From the NCBI RefSeq assembly GCF_002160895.1, contig NZ_NFLL01000004.1, forward strand, positions 62,001 to 126,000: 64,000 bases of DNA, given 5' to 3'. This document shows positions 9,656-31,368 of the stretch, piece after piece. Positions within the stretch are counted from its first letter, which is position 1. The number at the start of each line of letters is the position of its first letter. The position numbers and the translations under genes are program-made. Origin of the DNA: Faecalibacterium sp. An122. GTDB taxonomy: Bacteria; Bacillota; Clostridia; Oscillospirales; Ruminococcaceae. A model generated the notes under the pieces. The model had not been told where the DNA came from. It saw only the letters and a list, made by a program, of their open reading frames with translations, and searched no databases.

Positions 9656-10299
9656 GAGACCTGCTGAACCCCGACCGCCCGCTGCTGTCCTTCATCACCA
9701 AGATGACCTACAGCGCCTATCTGAACATTCTCTGGCTGCTGTGCAGCCTGCCCGTTGTCACCATCGGGGCATCCACCACCGCCCTGTTCTATGTCACCCT
9801 CAAGATGGCAGAGGACCGGGACGAGGGTCTGACGGGAATGTTCTTCCGGGCGTTCCGCCAGAACTTTGTCCCCGCCACCAAGGTGTGGCTGATTCTGCTG
9901 GCGGTGGGCGGATTCTTTGCGGTGGACGGCTACGTCCTCAGCCGGATCTGGAGCGACAGCATCCTCTGGACCCTCATCGCCGCGCTGCTGATTGTGGCGG
10001 CCATCGTCTACGCCATCGTCCTGCTGTACGCATTCCCGCTGCTGGCACGGTTTGAAAACACCACCTTCGGCATTCTGAAAACCTCCCTGCTGGTGGGGCT
10101 GCGGTATTTGGTCTGCACCCTGCTGATGGCGGCCATCTACGCCGCCATGTTCTGGGTGGTGGTCTGGGTGTTTACCCCGGCGTTTTTGCTGGGGTTCGGG
10201 TGCTGCGCCATGCTGTGCTCATTTTTCCTGGTGAAGGTGATCCACGCCTGCGGCGGGGCGCCGCAACCGGTGGAGGAAGAAGAAAATGCAGAACACTAA
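9652..10299 (+). CDS. YesL-family (DUF624) membrane protein
   Basis: 215 residues, four to five membrane helices, with the DUF624 N-terminal signature of a helix ending in a small-residue turn (LPVVTIGAST). YesL proteins are encoded beside LplABC/YesOPQ-type sugar transporters, but their function is not established. Translation is coupled to the LacI gene by a 4-bp overlap, and the next gene starts within its 3' end. The context says it serves the fructoside importer. Confidence 0.85.
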   Translation: MRDLLNPDRPLLSFITKMTYSAYLNILWLLCSLPVVTIGASTTALFYVTLKMAEDRDEGLTGMFFRAFRQNFVPATKVWLILLAVGGFFAVDGYVLSRIWSDSILWTLIAALLIVAAIVYAIVLLYAFPLLARFENTTFGILKTSLLVGLRYLVCTLLMAAIYAAMFWVVVWVFTPAFLLGFGCCAMLCSFFLVKVIHACGGAPQPVEEEENAEH

Positions 10300-10909
10300 A
10301 TGGAAAGAGGACTGGCAGACCATTCAATCCCTCCACGGCCGCAAGCGGCTGGACCACATCTGGACCTATTACAAAATCCCCATCATCCTGGTGCTGATTG
10401 TGGTGTACATGGCGGCCTACATCGGCTACCGGCAGGCCACCCGAAAAGAGGACGTGCTGTATCTGGCCCTGGTGAACGTGTCGGCGGGGCAGGACCTGAC
10501 CGAGGATTTAACCACCGGCTTCCTGGAACAGCAGGGGCTGAGCAGCGAAAAACAGCAGGTCTACTTCTACAATGGCCTGCTGCTGAGCGAGGACGCCGAT
10601 CCCCAGTATGCCTACGCCTCCCGCATGAAAATCATGGGGGCCCTGGCGGCGGATCAGCTGGATGTGGTCCTGATGGACCAGGAGGCCCGGGACGCCTTTG
10701 TGCAGGAGGAGTATCTGGCCGACCTGCGGACCCTGGACCCGTCTCTGACCCGGGAAGAAGGGCTGGATGAATCGGGCCTGTGGATGGATGTTTCTTCGTC
10801 GCCTTTGCTGGAGGCGGCAGGCTTTTCGGACCGGGTGTATCTGGGTGTGATTCGGGAATCCCCCAACCCCGACCGGGCCGCCGCCTTTATCCACTATCTG
10901 ATGTCATAA
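10286..10909 (+). CDS. Uncharacterised single-pass membrane protein of the fructoside operon
   Basis: 207 residues. A cytoplasmic N-terminus (about 30 residues, basic and aromatic) is followed by one membrane helix at about 31-49 and an extracytoplasmic domain. That domain has a stretch (LDVVLMDQEARDAF..EYLADL) resembling a lobe of a periplasmic-binding fold, but it is far too short for a full binding protein. A GGAGG box 9 bp upstream supports the start, which overlaps the YesL gene by 14 bp. I do not recognise a named family. Its fixed place after YesL suggests a partner of YesL or the transporter. Confidence 0.75.
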   Translation: MQNTKWKEDWQTIQSLHGRKRLDHIWTYYKIPIILVLIVVYMAAYIGYRQATRKEDVLYLALVNVSAGQDLTEDLTTGFLEQQGLSSEKQQVYFYNGLLLSEDADPQYAYASRMKIMGALAADQLDVVLMDQEARDAFVQEEYLADLRTLDPSLTREEGLDESGLWMDVSSSPLLEAAGFSDRVYLGVIRESPNPDRAAAFIHYLMS

Positions 10910-18787: not shown

Positions 18788-19063
18788 ATGGCGAGAAAAA
18801 AGAACGGCAGCCTGTCAGACTTGCAGCGGACCACCGATTTGCTGAGCGGCCTGCTGGTGCAGGAGGCAAGGGCTTTGGACCAGCGGCGGCGTCAGGAGGG
18901 CGGGCCGGGGGACATGAAGGCCCTCAAGGAAATCACAGCGGTGCTCAAGGACCTGGCGGCCGTGGCCAGAAGCCTGAGCGAGCAGGGCGGCGAGAGCGGC
19001 GGGCCGGAGTGCGGCGTGGTGCTGCTGCCGCCGGTGGAGCCGGGAAAGGAGGAATCAACATGA
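18788..19063 (+). CDS. Probable small terminase-like protein of the virion block
   Basis: 91 residues from the ATG at 18788, which follows GAAAGGAG. It is basic at the N-terminus and mostly helical, with a Gly/Pro-rich tail. I do not recognise a family by sequence. The position directly before, and overlapping (ATGA), the large terminase gene is that of a small terminase or DNA-recognition subunit. It is shorter than most TerS proteins, so an accessory role is possible. No clear sigma-A promoter is visible in the 150 bp upstream. Confidence 0.6.
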   Translation: MARKKNGSLSDLQRTTDLLSGLLVQEARALDQRRRQEGGPGDMKALKEITAVLKDLAAVARSLSEQGGESGGPECGVVLLPPVEPGKEEST

Positions 19064-20505
19064 ACCGGCAGGCCCCCATTATCTGGCAGCCCCAGCCCCG
19101 GCAGCGGGCGTTTATGGAGCGCAGCGAGCCGGAAGCCCTCTATGGGGGCGCGGCCGGCGGGGGAAAGAGCGACGCGCTGGTGATCGAGGCGCTGCGGCAG
19201 GTGGACATCCCCCACTACCGGGCCCTGATTTTGCGCAAGACCTTCCCCCAGCTGAGCGACCTGGTGGACAAGAGCATGAACTACTACCGGCGGGCTTTTC
19301 CCGCCGCCCAGTACAATGCCACCGCCCACGTCTGGATTTTCCCCAGCGGGGCCAAGATCTACTTCGGGTCCATGCAGTACACCAAGGACCGCACCAACTA
19401 CCAGGGCAAGGCCTTCGACTTCATCGGCTTTGACGAGCTGACCCACTTTGAATGGGAGGAGTACAGCTACATGATGAGCCGGAACCGTCCCACCGGGCCC
19501 GGCACCCGGGTGTATATGCGGGCCACCACCAACCCCGGCGGGGTGGGCCACGGCTGGGTCAAGGAGCGGTTCATCACCCCTGCCCCCGCCGGCACCCCCA
19601 TTCTGGAGGACTACCAGGTGCGGATGCCCGACGGCACCACCCGGACCTTCACCCGGGCCAGGGTGTTCATCCCTTCCAGCGTCTTTGACAACCCCGCCCT
19701 GCTGGCCAACGACCCGGGGTATCTGGCCAGTCTGGCCGCCCTGCCGGAGGCCGAAAAGCAGGCGCTGCTCTACGGCAGCTGGGACAGCTTTTCGGGTCAG
19801 GTGTTCACCGAGTGGCGCAACGACCCCGAACACTACCGGGACCAGCGATGGACCCATGTGGTGGAACCCTTCGAGATTCCCAAACACTGGCGGATCTGGC
19901 GGGGATACGACTTCGGGTATTCGCGGCCCTTCTCGGTGGGGTGGTATGCGGTGGACGAGGACGGCCGGATCTACCGGATCAAGGAGCTGTACGGCTGCAC
20001 CGGCCGACCCAACGAGGGTCTGCGGCTGGACCCGGTGGAACAGGCCCGGCGCATCCGGGAGGCGGAACAGAACGACCCGGTTCTCCGGGGACGGGTGATC
20101 CGCGGAGTGGCCGACCCGGCCATCTTCGACGAGAGCCGGGGGGAGAGCATTGCCGCCATGATGGAGCGGCCTCCCGCCTGCATCCACTGGTCGGGGGCGG
20201 ACAACACCCGTCTGGCCGGCAAGATGCAGATGCACTACCGTCTGGCCTTCGACGGGGAGGGGCGGCCCATGTTCCAGGTGTTCAGCACCTGCAAGCACTT
20301 TATCCGCACCATCCCGTCCCTGGTGTACGACGAGAGCAACGTGGAGGATGTGGATTCCCGTCAGGAGGACCACATCTACGACGAGTGCCGGTACGTCCTG
20401 ATGGAAAATCCCATCAGCCCGCCGGTGCGGCCTGCGCCGGCGCCACCGCCCGACGACCCGCTGGACCTGCGGCCCCGCAAGAAAACAGCATTCTACAGAA
20501 TATGA
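19060..20505 (+). CDS. terL: Phage terminase large subunit
   Basis: 481 residues from the ATG at 19060, 7 bp after AAAGGAGG. The packaging ATPase has Walker A GGAAGGGKS (29-37) and Walker B FIGFDE with Asp125-Glu126. The C-terminal RNase H-like nuclease shows acidic Asp283 (GYDFGYS) and Asp351 (GVADPAIFD). All essential residues are therefore intact. TerL docks on the portal and pumps DNA into the procapsid. It heads the structural gene order that continues with portal, scaffold and capsid. Confidence 0.93.
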   Translation: MNRQAPIIWQPQPRQRAFMERSEPEALYGGAAGGGKSDALVIEALRQVDIPHYRALILRKTFPQLSDLVDKSMNYYRRAFPAAQYNATAHVWIFPSGAKIYFGSMQYTKDRTNYQGKAFDFIGFDELTHFEWEEYSYMMSRNRPTGPGTRVYMRATTNPGGVGHGWVKERFITPAPAGTPILEDYQVRMPDGTTRTFTRARVFIPSSVFDNPALLANDPGYLASLAALPEAEKQALLYGSWDSFSGQVFTEWRNDPEHYRDQRWTHVVEPFEIPKHWRIWRGYDFGYSRPFSVGWYAVDEDGRIYRIKELYGCTGRPNEGLRLDPVEQARRIREAEQNDPVLRGRVIRGVADPAIFDESRGESIAAMMERPPACIHWSGADNTRLAGKMQMHYRLAFDGEGRPMFQVFSTCKHFIRTIPSLVYDESNVEDVDSRQEDHIYDECRYVLMENPISPPVRPAPAPPPDDPLDLRPRKKTAFYRI

Positions 20506-20514
20506 GGTGAAACC

Positions 20515-22314
20515 ATGCACGAACAGGAAATTCAGATCCAGGCCGCACCGCCCATCGGGCCGGAACAGGCCGCCGAGGCAGAGCGCATTCTGCACAAGTA
20601 CAAGGCCGGCAAGGCGGCGCTGGACCGGCGTCTCATCGACAACGAGCTGTGGTTCCGGATGGCCCACTGGAAGCAGTACAAAAACCGGATGATGGAGGGC
20701 AAGCCCCAGCCCTCCAGCGGGTGGCTGTTCAACTCCATCGCCAGCAAGCACGCCGACGCCATGGACAACTACCCCGAGCCCAACGTCCTGCCCCGGGCCG
20801 CCGACGACGAAAACACCGCCCGGATGCTGTCCAGCATTCTGCCGGTGGTGCTGGAACAGGCCGACTACGAGCAGGTCTATTCGGACAGCTGGTGGCGCAA
20901 GCTCAAGCAGGGCACCGGCGTCAAGGGCATCTTCTGGGACCCCACCGCCCGGGGCGGCATGGGCGAAATCGCCATCCGGTCCATGAACCTGCTGATGCTC
21001 TACTGGGAGCCGGGCATTATGGACATCCAGGACAGCCCCCACTTTTTCAGCCTGAGCCTGGAGGATTCGGACCAGCTGGCCGCCCGCTGGCCCCAGCTGC
21101 GGGGCCGCACCGGCGGCACCATCGATGCGGCCCGGTACATCCACGACGACAGCATCGACACCACCGACAAGAGCGTGGTGGTGGACTGGTACTACAAAAA
21201 GCCGGGCCCCGGCGGCAAGGAACTGGTCCACTACTGCAAGTTCTGCAACGGGATCGTTCTCTATGCCAGCGAAAACGACCCCCGTCTGGCCGAGAAAGGC
21301 TTCTACGACCACGGCAAGTACCCCTTTGTCTTTGACGTGCTGTTTCAGGAGGAGGACAGCCCGGCGGGCTTCGGGTACATCGACATCATGAAGGACTGCC
21401 AGAATTCCATCGACAAGATGAACCAGGCCATGGACGAAAACGTCCTGCTGGCGTCCAAACAGCGGTATGTCCTCAGCGATTCCGCCGGGGTCAACGAAGA
21501 AGAGCTGGCCGACTTTGGCCGGGACATCATCCATGTGACCGGCCGGCTCAACGACGACACCTTTCATCAGCTTCAGACCGCGGGGCTGCAGTCCAGCTCC
21601 ATCACCTACCGCAACAGCCGGGTGGACGAGCTGAAGGAAATCAGCGGCAACCGGGACATCAGCCAGGGCGGAACCTCGGGCGGCGTGACGGCGGCTTCGG
21701 CCATTGCGGCCCTGCAGGAGGCCGGCAGCAAACTGTCCCGGGATATGCTCAAGAGCGCGTACCGGGCGTTTGCCAAGGAGTGCTATCTGGTCATCGACCT
21801 GATGCGGCAGTTCTACGACGAGGAACGGGTCTTTCGCATTACGGGGGAGAAGGGACAGAACGTCTTTGTCCCGTTCAGCGGCGCAGCGCTGCGGGCCGTG
21901 CCGGCCGCCAGCGTGGGCGGCGTGGAGCTGGGCAGCCGGGAGCCGGTGTTTGATATCACCATCTCGGCGGCCAAAAAGTCCACCTTCAGCCGCCTGACCC
22001 AGAACGAGACCGCCAAGGAGTGCTACCAGCTGGGCTTTTTCAACCCGGCCAACGCCGACGCCGCTCTGGCCGCCCTGGAAATGATGGACTTTGAAGGGAT
22101 TGAGAAAGTCCGCCAGCGGGTGCGGCAGAACGGCACCATGGCCCGTCAGCTGCAGATGGCCCAGCAGCAGCTGGCCCGGCTGACCCAGGCCGCCGGAATG
22201 GTCCGGTCGGCCGGCCGGCAGAAGGCCGCCGGCGCCCGGACGGTCAGGGCGGCCCAGAGCCCCAGCCCCACAGCCGCCGCAGCCCGGGCCATGAACACCA
22301 ACACAAGGAGGTAA
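20515..22314 (+). CDS. Phage portal protein
   Basis: 599 residues, in the size range of podovirus-like (P22-type) portal proteins, following TerL by 9 bp. The sequence has a helical N-terminus, a wing/stem region and a C-terminal Gln/Ala-rich helical tail (about 530-599) such as P22-type portals use for a barrel. The central SITYRNSRVDELKEISGNRDIS region resembles portal crown segments. It forms the dodecameric DNA channel at one capsid vertex. The assignment rests on order, length and general resemblance, as no short diagnostic motif exists. Confidence 0.85.
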   Translation: MHEQEIQIQAAPPIGPEQAAEAERILHKYKAGKAALDRRLIDNELWFRMAHWKQYKNRMMEGKPQPSSGWLFNSIASKHADAMDNYPEPNVLPRAADDENTARMLSSILPVVLEQADYEQVYSDSWWRKLKQGTGVKGIFWDPTARGGMGEIAIRSMNLLMLYWEPGIMDIQDSPHFFSLSLEDSDQLAARWPQLRGRTGGTIDAARYIHDDSIDTTDKSVVVDWYYKKPGPGGKELVHYCKFCNGIVLYASENDPRLAEKGFYDHGKYPFVFDVLFQEEDSPAGFGYIDIMKDCQNSIDKMNQAMDENVLLASKQRYVLSDSAGVNEEELADFGRDIIHVTGRLNDDTFHQLQTAGLQSSSITYRNSRVDELKEISGNRDISQGGTSGGVTAASAIAALQEAGSKLSRDMLKSAYRAFAKECYLVIDLMRQFYDEERVFRITGEKGQNVFVPFSGAALRAVPAASVGGVELGSREPVFDITISAAKKSTFSRLTQNETAKECYQLGFFNPANADAALAALEMMDFEGIEKVRQRVRQNGTMARQLQMAQQQLARLTQAAGMVRSAGRQKAAGARTVRAAQSPSPTAAAARAMNTNTRR

Positions 22315-22320
22315 CAACGG

Positions 22321-23256
22321 ATGATCCAAGCAATTTACAGCGAGCTGGACGGCCCCGCCGGGGTGACCCGGCGGCTGGAGGTCAAGGGGCACGCCGGCTA
22401 CGCCCCCGCCGGCCAGGACATTGTCTGCGCCGGGGCCAGCATTCTGACGCAGGCCCTGGTCTGGATGACGGCGGAGGCCGAGCAGGCTGCCTGTACCGCG
22501 TCCGACGGCCCCGAGGGGCCCCGGGTGGTGATTACCGCCCAGCCCGGCCCCGACGCCCGGGAAAATCAGCGGATGGCCGGCGGGTTTGACCTGGCCAAGG
22601 CGGGCTTTGCCCTGCTGGCCGAGCGGTACCCCGACAACCTGCGGTTTGCCGACACCAGCAGCCGGGGCGAGGAGGGGATGATCGACCTGCAGCTCTTCGC
22701 CAAGAAGGACAAAAAGGGCCCCGCCCTCAGCCGGGAGCAGCAGCGCCAGGCTATGGCGGAGGGGACCATGGGCCGCCGCAAAAAGGCGGAGGAAACCCAG
22801 GAACCCCCGGCCCCGCCCAAGGACGCAGCCCCTCTGCGGCCCCAGGAACAGCCCCGCCGGGAGCCCATGATGGGCATTGGCGAGGTGGGCCGGTTCATCC
22901 GGGCGCTTCACCGCCAGTGGGCCCGGGAGGAGGCCGAGCTGCGCCGGGGCGACCCCAAGTTCTCGTTCCGTGAGGCGCTGAAAAGTCCCGCCATGCGCCG
23001 GATGATGCGGATGCCCGGGATGCGGATGCAGGAGGCCTACCATGCGGCCTTTTATGACCAGCTGATGGCCGGTACCGCCCGCACCGTGGAACAGGGGGTG
23101 GTGAACCGGGTCCAGGAGCGAGGCGCACGCCCCGCCGAAAACGGCATCCACAGCAAGGCCGCCGTCACCACCGCCCCCGACGTGAGCCGGATGAGTCGGG
23201 CCCAGCGGGAGGCCATCGAGCGGGAAGCCCTCCACGGGGCCAAGATCCGGCTGTAA
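22321..23256 (+). CDS. Prp-type cysteine protease fused to phage scaffold-like domain
   Basis: 311 residues. Residues 1-112 are a Prp (YsxB) domain: KGHAGYAPAGQDIVCAGAS carries the catalytic His24 and Cys36 with the 12-residue spacing known for Staphylococcus aureus Prp (His22/Cys34). Residues 119-130, GMIDLQLFAKKD, match the Prp cleavage signal LQxFA found at the N-terminus of Firmicute ribosomal protein L27. Residues 130-311 are charged, Pro-rich then helical with a basic C-terminus, as in phage scaffolds. The position between portal and capsid is where prohead protease and scaffold genes lie. I infer one polyprotein that releases a protease and a scaffold by self-cleavage after Ala127. Confidence 0.85.
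   Translation: MIQAIYSELDGPAGVTRRLEVKGHAGYAPAGQDIVCAGASILTQALVWMTAEAEQAACTASDGPEGPRVVITAQPGPDARENQRMAGGFDLAKAGFALLAERYPDNLRFADTSSRGEEGMIDLQLFAKKDKKGPALSREQQRQAMAEGTMGRRKKAEETQEPPAPPKDAAPLRPQEQPRREPMMGIGEVGRFIRALHRQWAREEAELRRGDPKFSFREALKSPAMRRMMRMPGMRMQEAYHAAFYDQLMAGTARTVEQGVVNRVQERGARPAENGIHSKAAVTTAPDVSRMSRAQREAIEREALHGAKIRL
22687..22701 (+). other. Predicted internal Prp cleavage site (LQLFA)
   Basis: Codons 123-127 of the protease-scaffold gene encode LQLFA followed by KKDKKG, close to the L27 precursor site LQFFA followed by SKKG. Cleavage after Ala127 would separate the two halves. Confidence 0.6.
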
Positions 23257-23313: not shown

Positions 23314-24351
23314 ATGAATCAGAACGAAATCCGCTTTGACCTGCAGTTCTTTGCCGACGCATCCAGCCAGCTGCAGAACACCACCTCCGCCTCGGGCATG
23401 ACCGCCGAGATGAAGACCTTCTATGAGAAGCGTCTGATCGACCAGGCCGAGCCCCGGCTGGTTCACGACCAGTTCGCCGACTACTACCCCATGCCGGTGG
23501 GCGGCGGCAAGACCATCGAGTTCCGCAAGTACGACAGCCTGCCCAAGGCTACCACCCCTCTGACTGAGGGCGTCACCCCCGACGGCCAGAGCCTGACCGT
23601 CTCCACCATCAAGAGCGATCTGCACCAGTACGGCGGCTGGACCCCCCTGACCGACGTGCTGCAGATGACCGCCATCGACAACAACGTGGTGCAGGCCACC
23701 CGCATTCTGGCCAGCCAGGCGGGCCGCACTCTGGACACCCTGACCCGTGACGTTCTGGCCGGCGGCACCAACGTCATCTATGCGCCCAAGGTGGCCGAGG
23801 ACGGCACCGAGACCCCCGTCAGCAGCCGTTCCGCCCTGACCCTGGACTGCAAGCTGACCCCCAAGCTGTTCTTCCAGGCAGCCGCCCAGCTGGGCGCCAT
23901 GAACGCCGACACCCTGGGCGACAGCTATGTGGCCATCATCCATCCCTACGCCGCCTACGACCTCAAGACCAGCAAGGAGTGGATCGAAGTCCACAAGTAC
24001 GCCGACCCCGAGGCCATGTACCGCGGCGAGATCGGCAAGCTGGGCAACATCCGCTTCATCGAGACCAGCGAGGCCAAGATCTGGAAGGACGAGACCTGCC
24101 CCGCCAACGGCGGCGACCATTACGCCGTGTTCGGCACCCTGGTGCTGGGCGCCCACGCCTACGGCGTCACCGAGCTGGAGGGCGGCGGCCTGGAGCACAT
24201 CGTCAAGCAGCTGGGCTATGGCGACGACCCCCTGAACCAGCGCGCTTCGGTGGGCTGGAAGGGCATGCGCGCCGCCGAGCGTCTGGTGGAACAGTACATG
24301 GTCCGTATCGAGAGCCTGTCCAGCTATTCGGCTTCGGCAGCCGCCAACTGA
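23314..24351 (+). CDS. Major capsid protein (N4-gp56 family type) with N-terminal Prp site
   Basis: 345 residues, starting after AAAGGACGA. The sequence from about residue 25 (KTFYEKRLIDQAEPRLVHDQ) and the segment GGWTPLTDVLQMT are typical of the N4-gp56-type HK97-fold capsid family. Residues 1-14 form a short leader ending FDLQFFA, the canonical Prp recognition sequence, so maturation should remove 14 residues. In Staphylococcus phage 80alpha the host Prp is known to cleave capsid and scaffold at such sites. The upstream gene supplies a Prp domain in the same operon. The gene is complete with no frameshift. Confidence 0.9.
   Translation: MNQNEIRFDLQFFADASSQLQNTTSASGMTAEMKTFYEKRLIDQAEPRLVHDQFADYYPMPVGGGKTIEFRKYDSLPKATTPLTEGVTPDGQSLTVSTIKSDLHQYGGWTPLTDVLQMTAIDNNVVQATRILASQAGRTLDTLTRDVLAGGTNVIYAPKVAEDGTETPVSSRSALTLDCKLTPKLFFQAAAQLGAMNADTLGDSYVAIIHPYAAYDLKTSKEWIEVHKYADPEAMYRGEIGKLGNIRFIETSEAKIWKDETCPANGGDHYAVFGTLVLGAHAYGVTELEGGGLEHIVKQLGYGDDPLNQRASVGWKGMRAAERLVEQYMVRIESLSSYSASAAAN
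23341..23355 (+). other. Predicted capsid maturation site (LQFFA)
   Basis: Codons 10-14 of the capsid gene encode LQFFA, identical to the canonical Prp target of ribosomal protein L27. Cleavage is expected after Ala14. Confidence 0.65.
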
Positions 24352-24380: not shown

Positions 24381-24596
24381 ATGGCAGAGGACAAGGTCCG
24401 CATCCGCCTGTTTAAGGACAACGGCCGCTACAAGGGCGACCTGTTCGTCAGCGTCAACGGCGTCAACTACAAGATTCGCCGGGGCGTGGAAGTGGAGGTG
24501 CCCCGGGCGGTGGCCGAGGTGCTGGAACACAGCCAGCGCCAGGACGATCTGACCGCCGCCCGCATTGCGGCGGCCGAGGACGCGGCAGGAAAGTAA
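24381..24596 (+). CDS. Small phage-block protein, function unknown
   Basis: 71 residues with AAAGGAG before the ATG. It is predicted to be a small beta domain (VRIRLFKDNGRYKGDLFVSVNGVNYKI) followed by a charged helix. It lies directly after the capsid gene and before a terminator. Capsid decoration or head-completion proteins occupy this place in many phages, but I cannot assign it by sequence. Confidence 0.7.
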   Translation: MAEDKVRIRLFKDNGRYKGDLFVSVNGVNYKIRRGVEVEVPRAVAEVLEHSQRQDDLTAARIAAAEDAAGK

Positions 24597-24604
24597 ACTG
24601 AATC

Positions 24605-24644
24605 AGCCCGGCACAGCCACAGACCGGTGTGCCGGGCTCTTTTT
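24605..24644 (+). terminator. Terminator inside the virion block, after the capsid genes
   Basis: Perfect 11-bp stem (AGCCCGGCACA / TGTGCCGGGCT) with a 12-nt loop and CTTTTT. It probably attenuates transcription so that capsid genes exceed tail genes. Confidence 0.85.
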
Positions 24645-24664
24645 CAAAGAAAGGAGGCTTGCAG

Positions 24665-25045
24665 ATGACGGCAGGCGAGGCCATCAACCAGGCCAGGGCG
24701 CTGCGCCCGGGCTGTGAGATCGGCGAAGAAACCATGAAGGAATGGCTGCGCAGAGAGGACGGGGAAATCCGCACCCGGCTTTTGGAACCCGCCGGCGCAG
24801 ACGGATTCGACGGGGTGGGGGCAGACCTGCTCTGGACCGACGGGCTGGCGGACAGCGCGGAACTGCTGGTTCCGTTCCCCTTTGACGGGATGTACCCCCA
24901 CTATCTGTCCGCCATGGTGGACGCAGCCCTGGGGGAGAACGACCGCTACAGCGGCGAGATGTCCCGCTGCAATGCGGTGCTGAGCGAGTTTGCGGTCTGG
25001 CTGCGGCGCAGTTTCCGGCCCGCGCCCCGCTCGGTGCGGTGGTAA
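24665..25045 (+). CDS. Probable head-tail connector protein
   Basis: 126 residues from the ATG at 24665, 6 bp after AAAGGAGG. It is helical with a repeated acidic/aromatic pattern, and the C-terminus is basic (WLRRSFRPAPRSVRW). Size and position (after capsid, before the large tail protein) match head-completion or adaptor proteins of podovirus-like phages, but no motif confirms it. Confidence 0.6.
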   Translation: MTAGEAINQARALRPGCEIGEETMKEWLRREDGEIRTRLLEPAGADGFDGVGADLLWTDGLADSAELLVPFPFDGMYPHYLSAMVDAALGENDRYSGEMSRCNAVLSEFAVWLRRSFRPAPRSVRW

Positions 25046-25058
25046 AGGGGGGAGCAGT

Positions 25059-26933
25059 ATGTACCTGCCTGAATTGCCCTCCCTCAAAAACAGCCGCCAG
25101 CAGATGCGGGTGTTCGGGGGTCTGAACGAGACCTTCGGCTGCACCGAGGCGGAGTATGCGGCGGGGAAGAATTTTTCCAGCCGGGATTTCCCGGCCCTGT
25201 CCACACGGACCCCCCGCCGCCGGCTGCGGGAGCTGGACAGCGTGGACGGGATGTACCATCTGAACGGCTTTCTCCTCATCCGCAAGGGCGGGCTGACCTA
25301 CACCCCCGACAGCGGGGACGAGCCGGTGAACCTCAGCGGCGTGCTGGAGGAGGGGAAAAAGATTCTGGTGGGCATCGGCACCCAGGTGCTGATTTTCCCC
25401 GACAAGAAAACCTTTGACACCGCCGACGGCACCCTCAAGCCCCTGGGGGCTTCCTGGGGCGGCGGGGGCGCCTCCATCGAGATGACCCCCTGCGACGCCG
25501 AGGGCAACACCTACACCGTCCAGAGCTGGGGGCTGGCCGAGCCCGAAAGCCCCGAGGACGGGGAGGTGTTCCTGAAAGTGGTGAGCCAGTCCAGCCCCTG
25601 GAACGCCGACGGGGTGCTGGAAGTCTACAGCAGCTCGCTGGAGCGGTGGACTTCGGTGACCCTGGACTACTGCAAGATCAACGCCGAGGGGATCGGAAAA
25701 AACTTTGCGGTGTGGGACACCGTCACGGTGGAGGGCACCGCCGCCTCGGCCGCCGGGGTGTGCGACGATCTGGACGGGGAGAAAATCCTCTACGACGTCA
25801 GCGACGACTGGCTGATGGTTCCGGTGACGCCGGGAGGCGAACACTTCTACGGGCGGGTGCTGCAGACCGGCAAAGAGGCCACATGGACCAGCCTGGACGG
25901 CAAAAACACCCTGTCCTATACGGTGGAAACCCCCATCCAGTGCACCCGCCGGGTGCCCGACATGGACTATCTGACCGAGTGCGACAACCGGGTCTGGGGC
26001 TGTTCCAGCGGGGAAAATGTGATCTACTCCTGCAAGCTGGGAGACCCCACCAACTGGTTCTCCTACCGGAATACCGCCGCCGACAGCTATGCGGTGACGG
26101 TGGGCAGCGACGGACGGTTTACCGGCGCGGCCACCTGCATGGGGTATGTGCTGTTTTTCAAGGAGAACACCCTCCACAAGCTCTGCGGCACCAAGCCCTC
26201 CGACTTTCAGCTCAGTTCCCTGCGGTGCCGCGGCGTGGCCAAGAACGCCGCCGGGAGCCTCTGCGTCATCAACGAAACCCTGTACTATCTCTCCCCCGAG
26301 GGGGTGATGGCCTGGGACGGCAGTCTGCCGGTGAAGGTATCCGGCGTGCTGGACCCGGAGGGTCTGGCCGCCGTCCGGCAGGCCGCCGGCGGATGGCTGG
26401 ACGGGCGGTATTACCTCTGGCTGGGCACCGACCAGGGAGGCCGGCTGCTGGTGTACGACACCGAGCGGGGCCTGTGGCATCAGGAGGACCCCGGGGCCTC
26501 CGGCACCCTGGACATGATGTCCAGCGGGCGGCAGCTCTATCTCTGGGACGGCGCGGCCCTCTGGGCGGCGGGCCCGGCCCGGGACGAGGACGCCGTCATG
26601 ACCGCCGAAGGGGAGGGCCAGGCGGAAACCGGCATCCCCTTCCAGATGGTGACGGGGGACATCGGCCTGGACGACAGCGAGGACAAGTACCTCTCCCGGC
26701 TGACCCTGCGGCTGGACGCCCAGCCGGGGACCTGGCTGGAAGTATGGGCCAGCTGCGACGGCGGACCATGGGAAAAGCTGGCCGCCGCCCGCACCCGGGA
26801 TGAAAAGGAAAAGCTGTGCATCCCCCTTGTTCCCCGCCGCCACGACACCCTCCGCCTTCAGCTGACCGGCACCGGACAGCTGACCCTGCGCAGCGTCAGC
26901 CGCACCATGGCTGCCGCCCGGGGCGGACTGTAA
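25059..26933 (+). CDS. Large tail/hub protein with propeller-like repeats
   Basis: 624 residues from the ATG at 25059, preceded by GGGGGGAG. After a 60-residue N-terminal arm the protein is almost all beta, with repeated short blades carrying G-x-W-D or W-x-C-S type turns (for example DNRVWGCSS, GVMAWDGS, GRYYLWLGTD, LYLWDGAALWAAG). This resembles the propeller-like tail-hub/stabilisation proteins of short-tailed phages such as P22 gp10, by analogy only. It probably plugs the portal channel or forms the tail stump. No tail tape measure is present in the block. Confidence 0.65.
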   Translation: MYLPELPSLKNSRQQMRVFGGLNETFGCTEAEYAAGKNFSSRDFPALSTRTPRRRLRELDSVDGMYHLNGFLLIRKGGLTYTPDSGDEPVNLSGVLEEGKKILVGIGTQVLIFPDKKTFDTADGTLKPLGASWGGGGASIEMTPCDAEGNTYTVQSWGLAEPESPEDGEVFLKVVSQSSPWNADGVLEVYSSSLERWTSVTLDYCKINAEGIGKNFAVWDTVTVEGTAASAAGVCDDLDGEKILYDVSDDWLMVPVTPGGEHFYGRVLQTGKEATWTSLDGKNTLSYTVETPIQCTRRVPDMDYLTECDNRVWGCSSGENVIYSCKLGDPTNWFSYRNTAADSYAVTVGSDGRFTGAATCMGYVLFFKENTLHKLCGTKPSDFQLSSLRCRGVAKNAAGSLCVINETLYYLSPEGVMAWDGSLPVKVSGVLDPEGLAAVRQAAGGWLDGRYYLWLGTDQGGRLLVYDTERGLWHQEDPGASGTLDMMSSGRQLYLWDGAALWAAGPARDEDAVMTAEGEGQAETGIPFQMVTGDIGLDDSEDKYLSRLTLRLDAQPGTWLEVWASCDGGPWEKLAAARTRDEKEKLCIPLVPRRHDTLRLQLTGTGQLTLRSVSRTMAAARGGL

Positions 26934-27160: not shown

Positions 27161-28429
27161 ATGGCAACCAATCGCAAAAATGACCCCTACAGCACCCAGG
27201 GCCTCAACAGCAAAAGCGACGTGCAGCAGGCGCTGGCCTCGGCCCAGTACAAGCCGGGGGAGGCGGTGAACAACGCGGCCAGCGCCCTGGAACAGTGGCA
27301 GGCCAGCCGGCCCGGCGCCTACCAGAGCCAGTACCAGGACCAGATCAACAGTCTGCTGGACAAGGCCATGTCCCAGGAGAGTTTCTCCTATAACTACGCC
27401 TCCGACCCGCTGTACCGGCAGTACGCCCAGACCTACCGCCAGAACGCCCACAACGCCAGCACCGACGCGGCCGCCCAGGCCGCCTCCCTGACCGGCGGCT
27501 ATGGTTCCAGCTACGCCACCAGCGCGGCCCAGCAGGCCTATCAGCAGCAGATGAACGGGCTGAACAGCGTGATTCCCACCCTGTACAATCTGGCCCTGGA
27601 CAGCTACACCAGCGAAGGGGATATGCTGATGAACCAGATCAGCGCCCTGAACACCCAGGAGCAGAACGCCCAGGATCTGTACTACCGTCAGCTGGACGAC
27701 TACTACACCCAGCTGGAACAGAAACAGGACGCCTACGAGAGTGCCTATGCCCAGGACTACGCCCAGTACACCAACTACCTGGCCAACCTGAACGACCTGT
27801 ACGGCTACTACACCCAGGAGGAAGAGGCGGAGGCCAGCCGCCGCCAGCAGACCTTCAACAACGTCATGAGCGTGCTGGGCCTGCTGGGCAACGTGGCCCA
27901 GCTGGCCATCAGCGGTACCACCGGCCTGGGTTCCCTGTTCAGCAATCTGGCCCAGGCGGGCTACAGCATGTACGCCGACAGCCGGGACTACGAGGCCGAC
28001 CGGGCCGACGCGGCATGGAACCAGCAGATGCAGGAACAGCTCCGCCAGGACAGTCTGGCCCAGCAGTCCTATGAGGACCAGACCGCCGCCCAGAAGTATC
28101 AGGATGCCCTGGCCCAGCAGCAGTTTGACAACGACGTCACCAGCCAGAAGCTGGCCATCGCCCAGGGCGAATGGGAGCTCAAGCGCACCCAGGCCCAGCA
28201 GGAAGCGGCCGCCGCCAGCATGCGGGCGGCCTCCAAGGCCTCGGGTTCGGGCAGCTCGGGCAGTTCCGGCTCGGGCAGCAAGAGCGGTTCGGGCTCCAGC
28301 GGCGGGTCCTCCGCTTCGGGCACCGCGGGCGGCATGGATTACCTGACCTTTGCCCGGCAGATGCGGTCCCAGGGGTACAGCATCGACGAAATCAAGGATA
28401 TGTTTGACGCCATGAGGGAAGAGCGTTAA
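27161..28429 (+). CDS. Gln/Ala/Tyr-rich internal or ejection-type virion protein
   Basis: 422 residues following a GGGGGAG box. It is dominated by Gln, Ala, Ser and Tyr in long helices (about 20-270), with one short hydrophobic segment at about 228-250 (VMSVLGLLGNVAQLAISGTTGLGSLF) that could insert into a membrane. A coiled-coil (about 280-345), a Ser-Gly linker (about 355-385) and a compact C-terminal helix pair follow (MDYLTFARQMRSQGYSIDEIKDMF). Composition and position match the internal proteins that short-tailed phages eject to carry DNA across the envelope. It is the last gene of the virion block; no lysis gene follows. Confidence 0.65.
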   Translation: MATNRKNDPYSTQGLNSKSDVQQALASAQYKPGEAVNNAASALEQWQASRPGAYQSQYQDQINSLLDKAMSQESFSYNYASDPLYRQYAQTYRQNAHNASTDAAAQAASLTGGYGSSYATSAAQQAYQQQMNGLNSVIPTLYNLALDSYTSEGDMLMNQISALNTQEQNAQDLYYRQLDDYYTQLEQKQDAYESAYAQDYAQYTNYLANLNDLYGYYTQEEEAEASRRQQTFNNVMSVLGLLGNVAQLAISGTTGLGSLFSNLAQAGYSMYADSRDYEADRADAAWNQQMQEQLRQDSLAQQSYEDQTAAQKYQDALAQQQFDNDVTSQKLAIAQGEWELKRTQAQQEAAAASMRAASKASGSGSSGSSGSGSKSGSGSSGGSSASGTAGGMDYLTFARQMRSQGYSIDEIKDMFDAMREER

Positions 28430-28489: not shown

Positions 28490-28534
28490 AAACCGGCGTG
28501 TTGTTTCGCAGAGAGACGGCGCGCCGGTTTTCTG
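28490..28534 (+). terminator. Probable terminator of the virion block
   Basis: 9-bp perfect arms AAACCGGCG and CGCCGGTTT separated by 23 nt and followed by TCTGCGTTT. The long loop lowers certainty. Confidence 0.5.
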
Positions 28535-28686
28535 CGTTTCCGCCATGGACGGGGGAGAAAACCGCAGACAGGCCCCGCGGCGGGCAAAGTAAGAAAAAAG
28601 CAAGATTTCCCCCGAAGTATCGGCGCGGATTTTATGTTATAATACACGGTACACAGGACCGAACCAAACCGATTGAGGTGAGACAG

Positions 28687-31368
28687 ATGAAAAAGCTTTC
28701 CATGGTCCATCGGCGTGTGCTGGATGACGCACAGGCGGACATCGGCGCGCTGTACAGGACGTTTCATATTTCCGAGCAGGGCTACAGTGAGGAACAGGTG
28801 GAAAAAAGCCGCGCCCGGTACGGAGAAAATGTTTTGTCGGGGCGCACCGCCGACACGGTTTTCTACCGGCTGCGGCGGGCTTTTGTGAATCCCTTCACGG
28901 TGATTCTGTTTGTGCTGGCGGTGATCTCCTTTTTGACCGACGTGGTGCTGGTGTCCAATTTCAGCCGCAACGTCACCACGCCGGTGATTATTTTGGGGAT
29001 GCTGCTGACCAGCGGCGTGGTCCGCTTTGTACAGGAACTCCGGGCCAAACGCATCGCCGACCATCTGACCCAGATGGTTTCCTCCACCGTGCTGGTGCTC
29101 CGGGACGGCCAATGGGTCAAGCTCTCCTCAACGGAACTGGTGGTGGGGGATCAGGTGCGCCTGCTGGCCGGGGACCGGGTCCCGGCGGATATCCGGCTGA
29201 CCGCGGCCAAAGATCTGTTTGTGTCCCAGTCGGTCCTGACGGGGGAGAGCGCCATTGTGGAAAAAAGCGCCGGCGTTCTGCCCCGGGGACAGGCCCGGTC
29301 CTATGCCGACTGCAGCAACCTGGTTTTCATGGGATCGTCGGTCACCGGCGGCACCGGGGAGGGCATTGTGCTGGCGGTGGGGGAAGATACCGTGTACGGC
29401 GGCTTCTCCACCGCGGAATCCCACCGGAAAAACGGTTTTGACCAGGGGGCCAATTCCATCGCGTGGGTGCTGATCCGCTTTATGGCGGTTTTGATCCCGG
29501 TGGTGTTCATGGCCTGCGGGCTGACCAAAGGGGACTGGATTTCGGCGTTTCTGTTTGCCCTGTCGGTGGCGGTGGGCCTGACCCCGGAAATGCTGCCCAT
29601 GGTCATCAACGCCTGCCTGGCCAAAGGCAGCGCCGCCATGGGCAAAAAGCAGACGGTGGTCAAAAACATCAACGCCATGCAGGGCTTCGGCAGCATGGAT
29701 ATCCTGTGCGTGGACAAGACCGGAACATTGACCGGGGACCAGATCGCCCTGGAATATTACATGGACATCCTGGGCAACGAGAGCCAGGCGGTGCTGGACT
29801 TTGGGTATCTGAACAGCCTTTATCACACCGGGGTGAAAAACCATCTGGACGAGGCCGTGGTCCGGTGCCGGAAAATGCCGGGGCACCGGATCCATTATCA
29901 GGAGCTGGAAGGGCAGTACCAAAAGCTGGACGAGCTTCCTTTCGACCACGAGCGAAGGTTTGCCAGCGTGCTGGTGGGGCGCGGGGAGGAAAAGCTGCTG
30001 CTGGTGAAGGGCAGCATCCGCGAGGTATGCCGCCGCTGCAGCTGGATTGAGTACAAGGGAGAGCGCCGCAGCATGGGAGGCGAGGGCAGCGCCAGCGTCC
30101 ACGCCATTGTGGACGACATGCTGGAGGACGGCATGAAGGTCCTGGCGGTGGCGTATAAGCCGATGCAGCGGGACCGGCTGTCGAGAGAGGACGAAAACGG
30201 GCTGATTCTGCTGGGATATCTGGCGTTTTTTGATGCGCCCAAGCAGAGCGCCGCCGCGGCCATCGGCCGGCTGCAGAAACTGCAGGTGGATGTGCGGGTG
30301 CTGACGGGGGACAACCGGGATGTGGCGGTTTCCATCTGCCGCCGGCTGGGAATCGACACGGCCCGCAACCTGACGGGGGAAGAGCTGGAACAGCTCACCG
30401 ACAACGAAAGGCCGGTGGCCATCGAGCGCACCGCGGTGTTTTCCGAGCTGTCCCCCAAACAGAAGGTCCAGGTGGTGCAGACCCTCCGGGCCAACGGGCA
30501 CACGGTGGGCTTTCTGGGGGACGGCATGAACGACCTGCCGGCGGTGGTGGAGTCGGATGTGGGGATCTCGGTGGATACCGCCGCCGAGGCGGTCAAGGAA
30601 GCCGCCGACGTGGTGCTGCTGAAAAAAGACCTGAACGTGCTGGAGGAAGGCATCCAGGAGGGCCGCAAGACCTACGCCAACATGATCAAGTACATCAAAA
30701 TGACCGCCTCGTCCAACTTCGGCAATATGTTTTCGGTGCTGGCCGCATCGGCCCTGCTGCCCTTCCTGCCCATGATGAGCCTGCATCTGATCCTGCTGAA
30801 CCTGATCTATGACCTGTCCTGCACCGCCATTCCCTGGGACAACGTGGACGAGGAGTTCATCGCCAAACCCCGGAAGTGGGACGCCTCCAGCGTGGGGAAC
30901 TTCATGCTCTGGATTGGACCCACCAGCTCCATCTTTGACTTTACCACCTATCTGTTCATGTACTTCGTGTTCTGCCCGCTGTTCATCTCGGGCGGGGTGC
31001 TGTTCAATGACCTGCCGGCCCATTTCAGCGGGATGGAACTGGCCATGATGCAGGCCAAGTACATCGGCATGTTCCAGGCCGGCTGGTTTGTGGAGTCCAT
31101 GTGGAGCCAGACGCTGGTCATCCACATGATCCGCACCCCCAAGCTCCCCTTTATCCAGAGACGGGCATCTGCACCCCTCACGCTGCTCACCCTCACCGGC
31201 ATTACGGTGCTGACCATCATTCCCTTTACCCCCTTTGGCGCCGCGCTGGGATTTGTCGCGCTGCCGGCTGCATACTTTGCCTATCTCATCCCCTGCATTC
31301 TGCTGTATATGGTCCTGGCAACCAGCCTCAAAAAGGCCTATGTCCGGCACTGTGGGGAACTGCTTTAA
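28687..31368 (+). CDS. mgtA: MgtA-type magnesium-importing P-type ATPase
   Basis: 893 residues from the ATG at 28687, which has GAGGTGAGAC upstream and a TATAAT box at 28638-28643; a longer in-frame start lies upstream of that promoter. P-type ATPase motifs are in order: actuator TGES (LTGESAIVEK), phosphorylated Asp343 in CVDKTGTLTGD, TGDNRDVA, and GDGMNDLPA. Ten membrane helices are expected. The metal-site helix sequence LTPEMLPMVI is that of MgtA/MgtB-type Mg2+ importers. The following small membrane gene is probably co-transcribed. No M-box riboswitch structure was recognised in the short leader. Confidence 0.92.
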   Translation: MKKLSMVHRRVLDDAQADIGALYRTFHISEQGYSEEQVEKSRARYGENVLSGRTADTVFYRLRRAFVNPFTVILFVLAVISFLTDVVLVSNFSRNVTTPVIILGMLLTSGVVRFVQELRAKRIADHLTQMVSSTVLVLRDGQWVKLSSTELVVGDQVRLLAGDRVPADIRLTAAKDLFVSQSVLTGESAIVEKSAGVLPRGQARSYADCSNLVFMGSSVTGGTGEGIVLAVGEDTVYGGFSTAESHRKNGFDQGANSIAWVLIRFMAVLIPVVFMACGLTKGDWISAFLFALSVAVGLTPEMLPMVINACLAKGSAAMGKKQTVVKNINAMQGFGSMDILCVDKTGTLTGDQIALEYYMDILGNESQAVLDFGYLNSLYHTGVKNHLDEAVVRCRKMPGHRIHYQELEGQYQKLDELPFDHERRFASVLVGRGEEKLLLVKGSIREVCRRCSWIEYKGERRSMGGEGSASVHAIVDDMLEDGMKVLAVAYKPMQRDRLSREDENGLILLGYLAFFDAPKQSAAAAIGRLQKLQVDVRVLTGDNRDVAVSICRRLGIDTARNLTGEELEQLTDNERPVAIERTAVFSELSPKQKVQVVQTLRANGHTVGFLGDGMNDLPAVVESDVGISVDTAAEAVKEAADVVLLKKDLNVLEEGIQEGRKTYANMIKYIKMTASSNFGNMFSVLAASALLPFLPMMSLHLILLNLIYDLSCTAIPWDNVDEEFIAKPRKWDASSVGNFMLWIGPTSSIFDFTTYLFMYFVFCPLFISGGVLFNDLPAHFSGMELAMMQAKYIGMFQAGWFVESMWSQTLVIHMIRTPKLPFIQRRASAPLTLLTLTGITVLTIIPFTPFGAALGFVALPAAYFAYLIPCILLYMVLATSLKKAYVRHCGELL

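Follow-up and report, generated by a model that had tools for sequence, protein, structure and literature searches.

A predicted Prp-type protease fused to a scaffold in a GTA-like capsid cluster of Faecalibacterium

The window analyzed here, a stretch of 64,000 nucleotides from Faecalibacterium sp. An122, contains an open frame (22321-23256, + strand; 311 aa as read in translation) in which the motifs GHAGYAP (His24) and DIVCAGAS (Cys36) are followed by LQLFA at residues 123-127 and then by KKDKKG. The first two motifs recall the cysteine protease Prp and the third recalls the sites that Prp cuts, which raises the question of why such an enzyme stands in one frame with a capsid-cluster protein and what it would cut there. 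We consider it likely that this gene codes for the enzyme that processes the capsid of a GTA matching FpGTA I, namely a prohead protease of the Prp class that is fused to a scaffold and processes both scaffold and capsid, the cleavage itself being predicted.

The initial annotation of this frame had proposed a Prp catalytic pair in its N-terminal part and had suggested a Pfam profile search, a structure prediction and a survey of other genomes as checks. The profile PF04327 (Peptidase_Prp) matched residues 13-107 of the 311-aa protein with 49.8 bits against a cut-off of 27, and aa 1-119 alone with 52.9 bits. An AF2 model, calculated from an input of 17 window and related proteins, gave a confident N-terminal domain, with a pLDDT of 70-91 per 10-residue block over aa 1-110; with a mean pLDDT of 70 and a pTM of 0.39 for the model, all statements on the fold refer to this domain only. 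When the domain was compared with the PDB using Foldseek, all of the top 12 matches were Prp structures, including 2idl (E 3e-7), 2g0j, 2g0i, 7kld, 7jvs, and 4peo. The last three are S. aureus Prp, and an excerpt of PMC9405229 identifies the streptococcal entries 2idl and 2g0i as Prp. A sequence profile built from 13 Prps of GTAs and phages found the same structures. Thirty-one fused proteins reaching down to 39% identity to the window protein were aligned, without the insert-bearing L008 and the frameshifted L142 and with some rows being near-copies. G23, H24, D33, C36, and S40 were invariant in this alignment; these correspond to the catalytic His and Cys and to the Gly, Asp, and Ser of the active site, with roles as given in the same excerpt. 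The proposed protease domain is thus borne out by profile, fold, and catalytic residues. The NCBIfam equivalog for ribosomal Prp reached at best 27.7 bits on the window protein, below its cut-off of 171.

The C-terminal part of the fused protein had no Pfam match and matched phrog_13908, whose function in PHROG is unknown. Based on its position, its helices, and the phrog match, it is scaffold-like, in line with the first description of it. The gene belongs to a cluster of about 10 kb (Table 1), which is flanked by host genes for a histidine kinase, a response regulator, and a binding-protein transporter on one side and for a P-type ATPase, a GH2 enzyme, and a short-chain dehydrogenase on the other. 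Searches of eight cluster genes, the TerS-position ORF, and seven flanking genes gave no hit to an integrase or a replication protein. The P-type cation ATPase gene (28498-31368) lies between the cluster and the GH2 gene in the window, and in L016 and L018 the GH2 gene directly follows the cluster.

Table 1 Features of the fused gene and of the surrounding cluster in the window
Feature	Position	Strand	Basis
Small ORF in TerS position	18788..19063	+	Position only; no Pfam match; homologues in most, not all, genus loci
Terminase large subunit (TerL)	19009..20505	+	PF03237, 60 bits
Portal protein, P22-like	20515..22314	+	PF16510, 107 bits
Prp cysteine protease domain, aa 1-111	22321..22653	+	PF04327, AF2, Foldseek, invariant residues; dyad His24/Cys36, also G23, D33, S40
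Linker, aa 112-131	22654..22713	+	AF2 pLDDT <50 at aa 117-131
Purine-rich Shine-Dalgarno-like stretch ggcgaggagggg before internal ATG	22666..22677	+	Duplex energy -11.0 kcal/mol
Met120 codon, probable internal start of free scaffold	22678..22680	+	Invariant in 31/31; Shine-Dalgarno pairing
Scaffold region, M120 to stop	22678..23256	+	AF2 helices 186-210, 245-269, 293-304; phrog_13908; between portal and MCP
Prp-type site LQLF|A, predicted bond F126|A127	22687..22701	+	Sequence, conservation; cut position by analogy with 80alpha
Major capsid protein (MCP), N4-gp56 family	23314..24351	+	TIGR04387, 310 bits
Second Prp-type site LQFF|A, MCP N-terminus, predicted F13|A14	23341..23355	+	Sequence
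Small conserved ORF of cluster	24381..24596	+	phrog_15239; genus homologues
Conserved ORF of cluster	24629..25045	+	phrog_12105; genus homologues
Internal virion/short-tail type protein	24990..26933	+	phrog_511, 135 bits; true start probably downstream of 24990
Last conserved ORF of cluster	27161..28429	+	Genus-locus homologues; phrog match weak

The two parts are joined by a linker that is disordered in the AF2 model at aa 117-131 and carries MIDLQLFA; given this disorder and the pTM of 0.39, the model says nothing about docking of the site. Across the fused proteins, M120, L123, Q124, and F126 were invariant (31/31) and A127 was conserved in 30 of 31, with Gly in L153, so the Prp-type site claimed at the joint is present and conserved. 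Cleavage had been placed after Ala127. In phage 80alpha, Prp cuts between F and A in both scaffold and capsid (excerpt of PMC5744158), and by this analogy we reject a cut after Ala127 and expect F126|A127 as the scissile bond.

A likely second substrate, absent from the initial annotation, is the N-terminus of the MCP, which starts MNQNEIRFDLQFFADASS and thereby carries a second Prp-type site; the uncut N-terminus is of the MNQNEIRFDLQFFA type. By inspection, [LI]QxFA was present at the MCP N-terminus in all 32 genus loci. A search of the host genome with a DNA pattern covering LQ[LFIMV]FA-type words only returned 18 matches, against 3 for a backward control pattern, and the 18 include the sites at the scaffold joint and in the MCP. 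The remaining 16 do not resemble protein N-termini: eight lack a Met in the 20 codons upstream, in five (L309, L313, L314, L315, L317) a longer frame lies in another reading at the same place, and in three (L311, L323, L325) the motif is far from the frame start.

The invariant Met at the joint bears on how the scaffold is made. Since the position matching M120 varies among the MCP sites, Prp need not require Met there, and an internal start is the likelier explanation for its invariance. The Shine-Dalgarno energy at the Met120 ATG had a median of -7.2 kcal/mol over 33 loci, compared with -3.3 kcal/mol for 338 other internal ATGs and -12.0 kcal/mol for gene starts. Because the loci are related, the p-value of this difference is inflated. 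These sequence features suggest that in Faecalibacterium the scaffold is also translated alone. The frame had been described as apparently a self-processing polyprotein; Prp, site, and scaffold-like part do stand in one frame, but Met120 suggests a free scaffold too, so that the product here may not be purely a polyprotein.

With this in mind, a reading as nested genes, in which most scaffold comes from the Met120 start and the long chain only carries the protease into the shell, has a chance only slightly short of even; it is compatible with the explanation we favor and differs in weight. In addition to the invariance of Met120 and its pairing above that of other internal ATGs, this reading is favored by five genus loci (L154, L155, L165, L166, L167) in which Prp and scaffold are separate frames. 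Four of these separate scaffolds have a similar site near the start (LQQFA or LQLFG), and that of L167 is poor (LHRFG). Against it, several loci have weak Shine-Dalgarno pairing (-3.2 kcal/mol in L140, L151, L152, L007), and some phage relatives offer little to start from. In L202 the 40 codons preceding the site include neither ATG nor GTG nor TTG, so that cleavage should be the only source of its scaffold, and in L188, L190, L198, and L263 such codons occur only at least 15 codons upstream, mostly with weak Shine-Dalgarno pairing; L259 and L277 do have plausible ATGs upstream of the site with good pairing.

Under the preferred reading of a self-processing Prp-scaffold fusion, the Prp domain would cut F126|A127 during procapsid assembly, freeing itself and trimming the scaffold, and would cut the MCP at F13|A14; these are the same two protein classes that host Prp trims in 80alpha. 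In Faecalibacterium two products would be made, the full Prp-scaffold chain and a free scaffold from Met120, so that only a fraction of the scaffold copies would bring the protease into the small shell, the internal start letting free scaffold outnumber protease-bearing scaffold. An internal start has the same effect in lambda C/Nu3 and in herpesvirus UL26/UL26.5. In some phage relatives that have no start codon near the joint, the scaffold would arise from cleavage alone.

Is there another Prp in the host, or another substrate for this one? The host genome (G000, 99.9% complete) contains a single PF04327 match, the fusion gene. The host L27 is short and starts MAHKKG, and rplU is directly upstream of rpmA with no prp between them. 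Across the genus, 27 genomes had an L27 match, and all 24 N-termini that could be read were short (3 of 27 were unreadable). In the host family, the best 30 of 139 L27 loci were read, with adjacency judged by eye from coordinates: 18 have a long L27 and all 18 adjoin a prp match, while the 12 with a short L27, from 11 genera, have no prp match anywhere in the genome. Thus, in all 30 loci read, a ribosomal Prp goes with the L27 extension and the lack of one with the lack of the other, and the phage-type Prp is the only Prp detected in Faecalibacterium. The window gene, which is not beside rplU/rpmA and has no long L27 to process, does not have the setting of a ribosomal Prp. The suggestion that this system supplies its own Prp instead of relying on the host therefore agrees with both the lack of another host match and the place of the gene within the capsid cluster.

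The missing long L27 could also be taken to mean that the Prp domain is an inactive relic that survives as a structural element at the N-terminus of the scaffold, and 80alpha itself does not need the cut: its mutants with uncleavable scaffold or capsid are viable (excerpt of PMC5744158), so cleavage may not be essential. We find a relic very improbable given the invariance of G23, H24, D33, C36, and S40 down to 39% identity, the retention of two sites, and the selection on the domain. Median dN/dS over 24 fused genus genes, taken from pairs with 0.1<dS<1 only, was 0.32 for the Prp part, 0.42 for the scaffold, and 0.17 for the MCP, and all three are under purifying selection in the genus. Cys36 offers a simple handle on whether particle maturation needs cleavage.

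To what kind of element does the cluster belong? PF04327 matches were found in 30 of 31 same-genus genomes, the genome without a match being only 80% complete, and each of the 32 matches belongs to a cluster that also has portal and MCP homologues. The same fused frame occurs in 26 of the 32 loci and also in IMG/VR and in faecal phage records. A sequencing or assembly frameshift as the source of the fusion is ruled out by these 26 loci, and a one-off event by the fused homologues across genus, IMG/VR, and faecal phage records. The other six loci are unfused, five by arrangement and one by frameshift, so fusion is not required. The frameshifted locus, L142 (G174; ~10160-10360, reverse strand), has an insert of ~150 bases behind the site, which brings a second LQLFA, and a frameshift separates Prp from scaffold; the insert is also present in L008, in frame there, and the frameshift is either real decay or an assembly error.

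A tree of the cluster (TerL, portal, MCP) shared 15 of 22 splits with a tree of rplU-rpmA-obg over 25 genomes, with one cluster per genome taken for G159 and G163, whereas the maximum under 1000 label permutations was 3. Seven of the 22 splits differ, and inheritance of the cluster in the genus is largely vertical. The two genomes just named each have a second cluster, L145 (G159) and L148 (G163), fused and with a much longer scaffold (frames of 460 and 484 aa). In the MCP tree, L145 and L265 have identical MCPs, L265 being part of a viral record with an integrase, and the second clusters are probably related prophages beside the GTA.

FpGTA I (Borodovich et al. 2026, PMC12946183; CP030777 2536737-2546346) is an operon of ~10 kb for TerS, TerL, portal, scaffolding, MCP, and short-tail proteins, present in all twelve Faecalibacterium genomes examined there. 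Particles of F. prausnitzii ATCC 27766 measured ~40 nm and held 8.4-8.9 kb of seemingly random host DNA, and FpGTA I structural proteins were detected by LC-MS. A second operon, FpGTA II (baseplate, fibre, lysis), was not found there in seven strains. The window contains the same series TerS-TerL-portal-scaffold-MCP-short-tail in ~10 kb, with TerS assigned by position only and no replication genes found. By gene content, order, size, and genus-wide presence, not by sequence comparison, the window cluster is very probably of the FpGTA I kind. The accessions given for FpGTA I (portal RCH50851.1, MCP RCH50849.1) leave a single number between them, which would fit one fused gene in that place. The words Prp, protease, cleavage, peptidase, and L27 do not occur in the main text of PMC12946183, and its authors state that further maturation genes cannot be excluded; the operon is like the window cluster in size, gene set, and genus, and the fusion and the sites are not described in that main text. 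The "phage-type" label of the initial annotation holds for a capsid-cluster gene, but in order, size, and genus-wide presence the cluster matches a domesticated GTA and not a live phage.

The small size of the cluster, the lack of an integrase or replication match in the cluster and flanking genes examined, and the frameshift after the site in one genome would also fit a defective prophage remnant in which the fusion is a product of decay. This is very unlikely when the Prp match is present in 30 of 31 genus genomes, the tree is largely vertical with purifying selection, and particles, DNA, and proteomics have been published for an operon of the same kind (PMC12946183).

The distribution beyond the genus was assessed with two IMG/VR scans of one or two peptide patterns each, from which the best 80 of 277 and the best 80 of 133 matches were taken. 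Among these best matches, 81 distinct Prp-bearing stretches comprised 61 with a separate Prp and 20 with a fused one (the Prp motif of L212 and L252 was not recognized by the survey script); because the set is biased towards the query, 20 of 81 is not a population frequency. All 20 fused stretches have the site in the linker. Around the separate Prps, 360 downstream and 227 upstream ORFs were surveyed: an ORF starting [LI]QxF[AG] follows in 48 of the 61 contigs, with two or more in 28, against 0 of 61 for each of four control motifs and 1 of 61 on the upstream side. A Prp that carries no annotation in Dorea phage DO134P1 likewise precedes a gene in scaffold position whose product contains ANLQLFA; such separate phage Prps and the "peptidase" phrog_4478 differ from the window gene in that they are not fused.

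A tyrosine integrase was found in four of eight checked records holding fused loci. On the MCP tree, for which 77 of 109 loci had a usable MCP, the fused label needs 4 changes, a count that cannot separate gain from loss. Since L273 and L278 pair up away from the main group of fused loci, the fusion probably arose at least twice. In a tree of Prp domains, 27 ribosomal Prps of the host family lie on one side of a branch (SH-aLRT 99) and GTA and phage Prps on the other; few columns were available, a domain was obtained from 27 of 30 ribosomal loci, and chosen phage loci only were included. That the fused Prp was captured from the host ribosomal prp when the latter was lost, as the lack of a ribosomal prp in the host lineage might suggest, is unsupported by this split (few columns) and is highly improbable also because the same fusion occurs in integrase-bearing viral records.

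Protease and scaffold share one frame in lambda gpC/Nu3, P2 gpO, and herpesvirus UL26/UL26.5, with or without an internal scaffold start, and gpC, gpO, and UL26 are serine proteases of other folds. The window gene has this common one-frame design, with a protease followed in frame by a predicted scaffold between portal and MCP as in lambda C/Nu3, whereas its enzyme is a Prp-type cysteine protease. The nearest relative in enzyme and substrates is 80alpha with S. aureus Prp (excerpts of PMC5744158 and PMC9405229), which has the same protease family, the site type LQFF|A, and the N-termini of scaffold and capsid as targets. In that system, however, the host ribosomal Prp is used, a separate protein acting on separate substrates (PMC5744158), while the window Prp is encoded in the cluster and fused to the scaffold, in a host without another Prp match or a long L27. 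RcGTA and RcGTA-like regions (PMC11409702) also have a prohead protease gene in a GTA, and in the related LC2 and LC3 the protease domain lies within a longer capsid gene; this is another protease, joined, where joined, to the MCP and not to the scaffold. ORF22 of Shewanella phage vB_SbaS_Y11 is a predicted protease discussed beside Prp, in a phage with an N4-gp56 capsid protein; compared by description only, the excerpt of PMC10846135 does not call it Prp and gives no substrate, site, or fusion.

The protease-with-scaffold design and the Prp enzyme family are thus known already, while no description was found of Prp combined with a scaffold, of such a gene in a GTA, or of its occurrence in a host lacking a Prp of its own. 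The literature covered, which left subscription journals mostly outside its scope, contained neither a fusion of Prp to a scaffold nor a GTA with a Prp, and nothing in it clearly reported a phage-encoded Prp, the Shewanella phage ORF22 (PMC10846135) being the nearest case. The claim of novelty made for the fusion stands to this extent, but separate Prps often precede scaffold genes in the viral contigs surveyed, and the fusion turns up again in phages. We lean towards a broader proposal, that there is a class of prohead protease not recorded in the literature covered, in which phages and a domesticated GTA encode their own Prp with L27-like sites on scaffold and capsid, a self-processing fusion arose in probably at least two lineages, and the GTA Prp is the only one of its cell, serving particle assembly alone.

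The gene supplies a candidate maturation protease for the GTA of a human gut genus, and it would give the protease-plus-scaffold design a cysteine-protease version, with the processing enzyme apparently supplied by the particle itself. Prp, known as a host ribosome factor that phages borrow, is also a phage and GTA gene with predicted substrates of its own, which may bear on the origin of ribosomal Prp. In phages like L011 and L012, a tail protein may be a third Prp substrate: a further downstream gene (L011 8584-9228, annotated as putative tail protein; L012 8677-9216) starts with a Prp-like site, GLQVFSES and GLQLFAEA, respectively.
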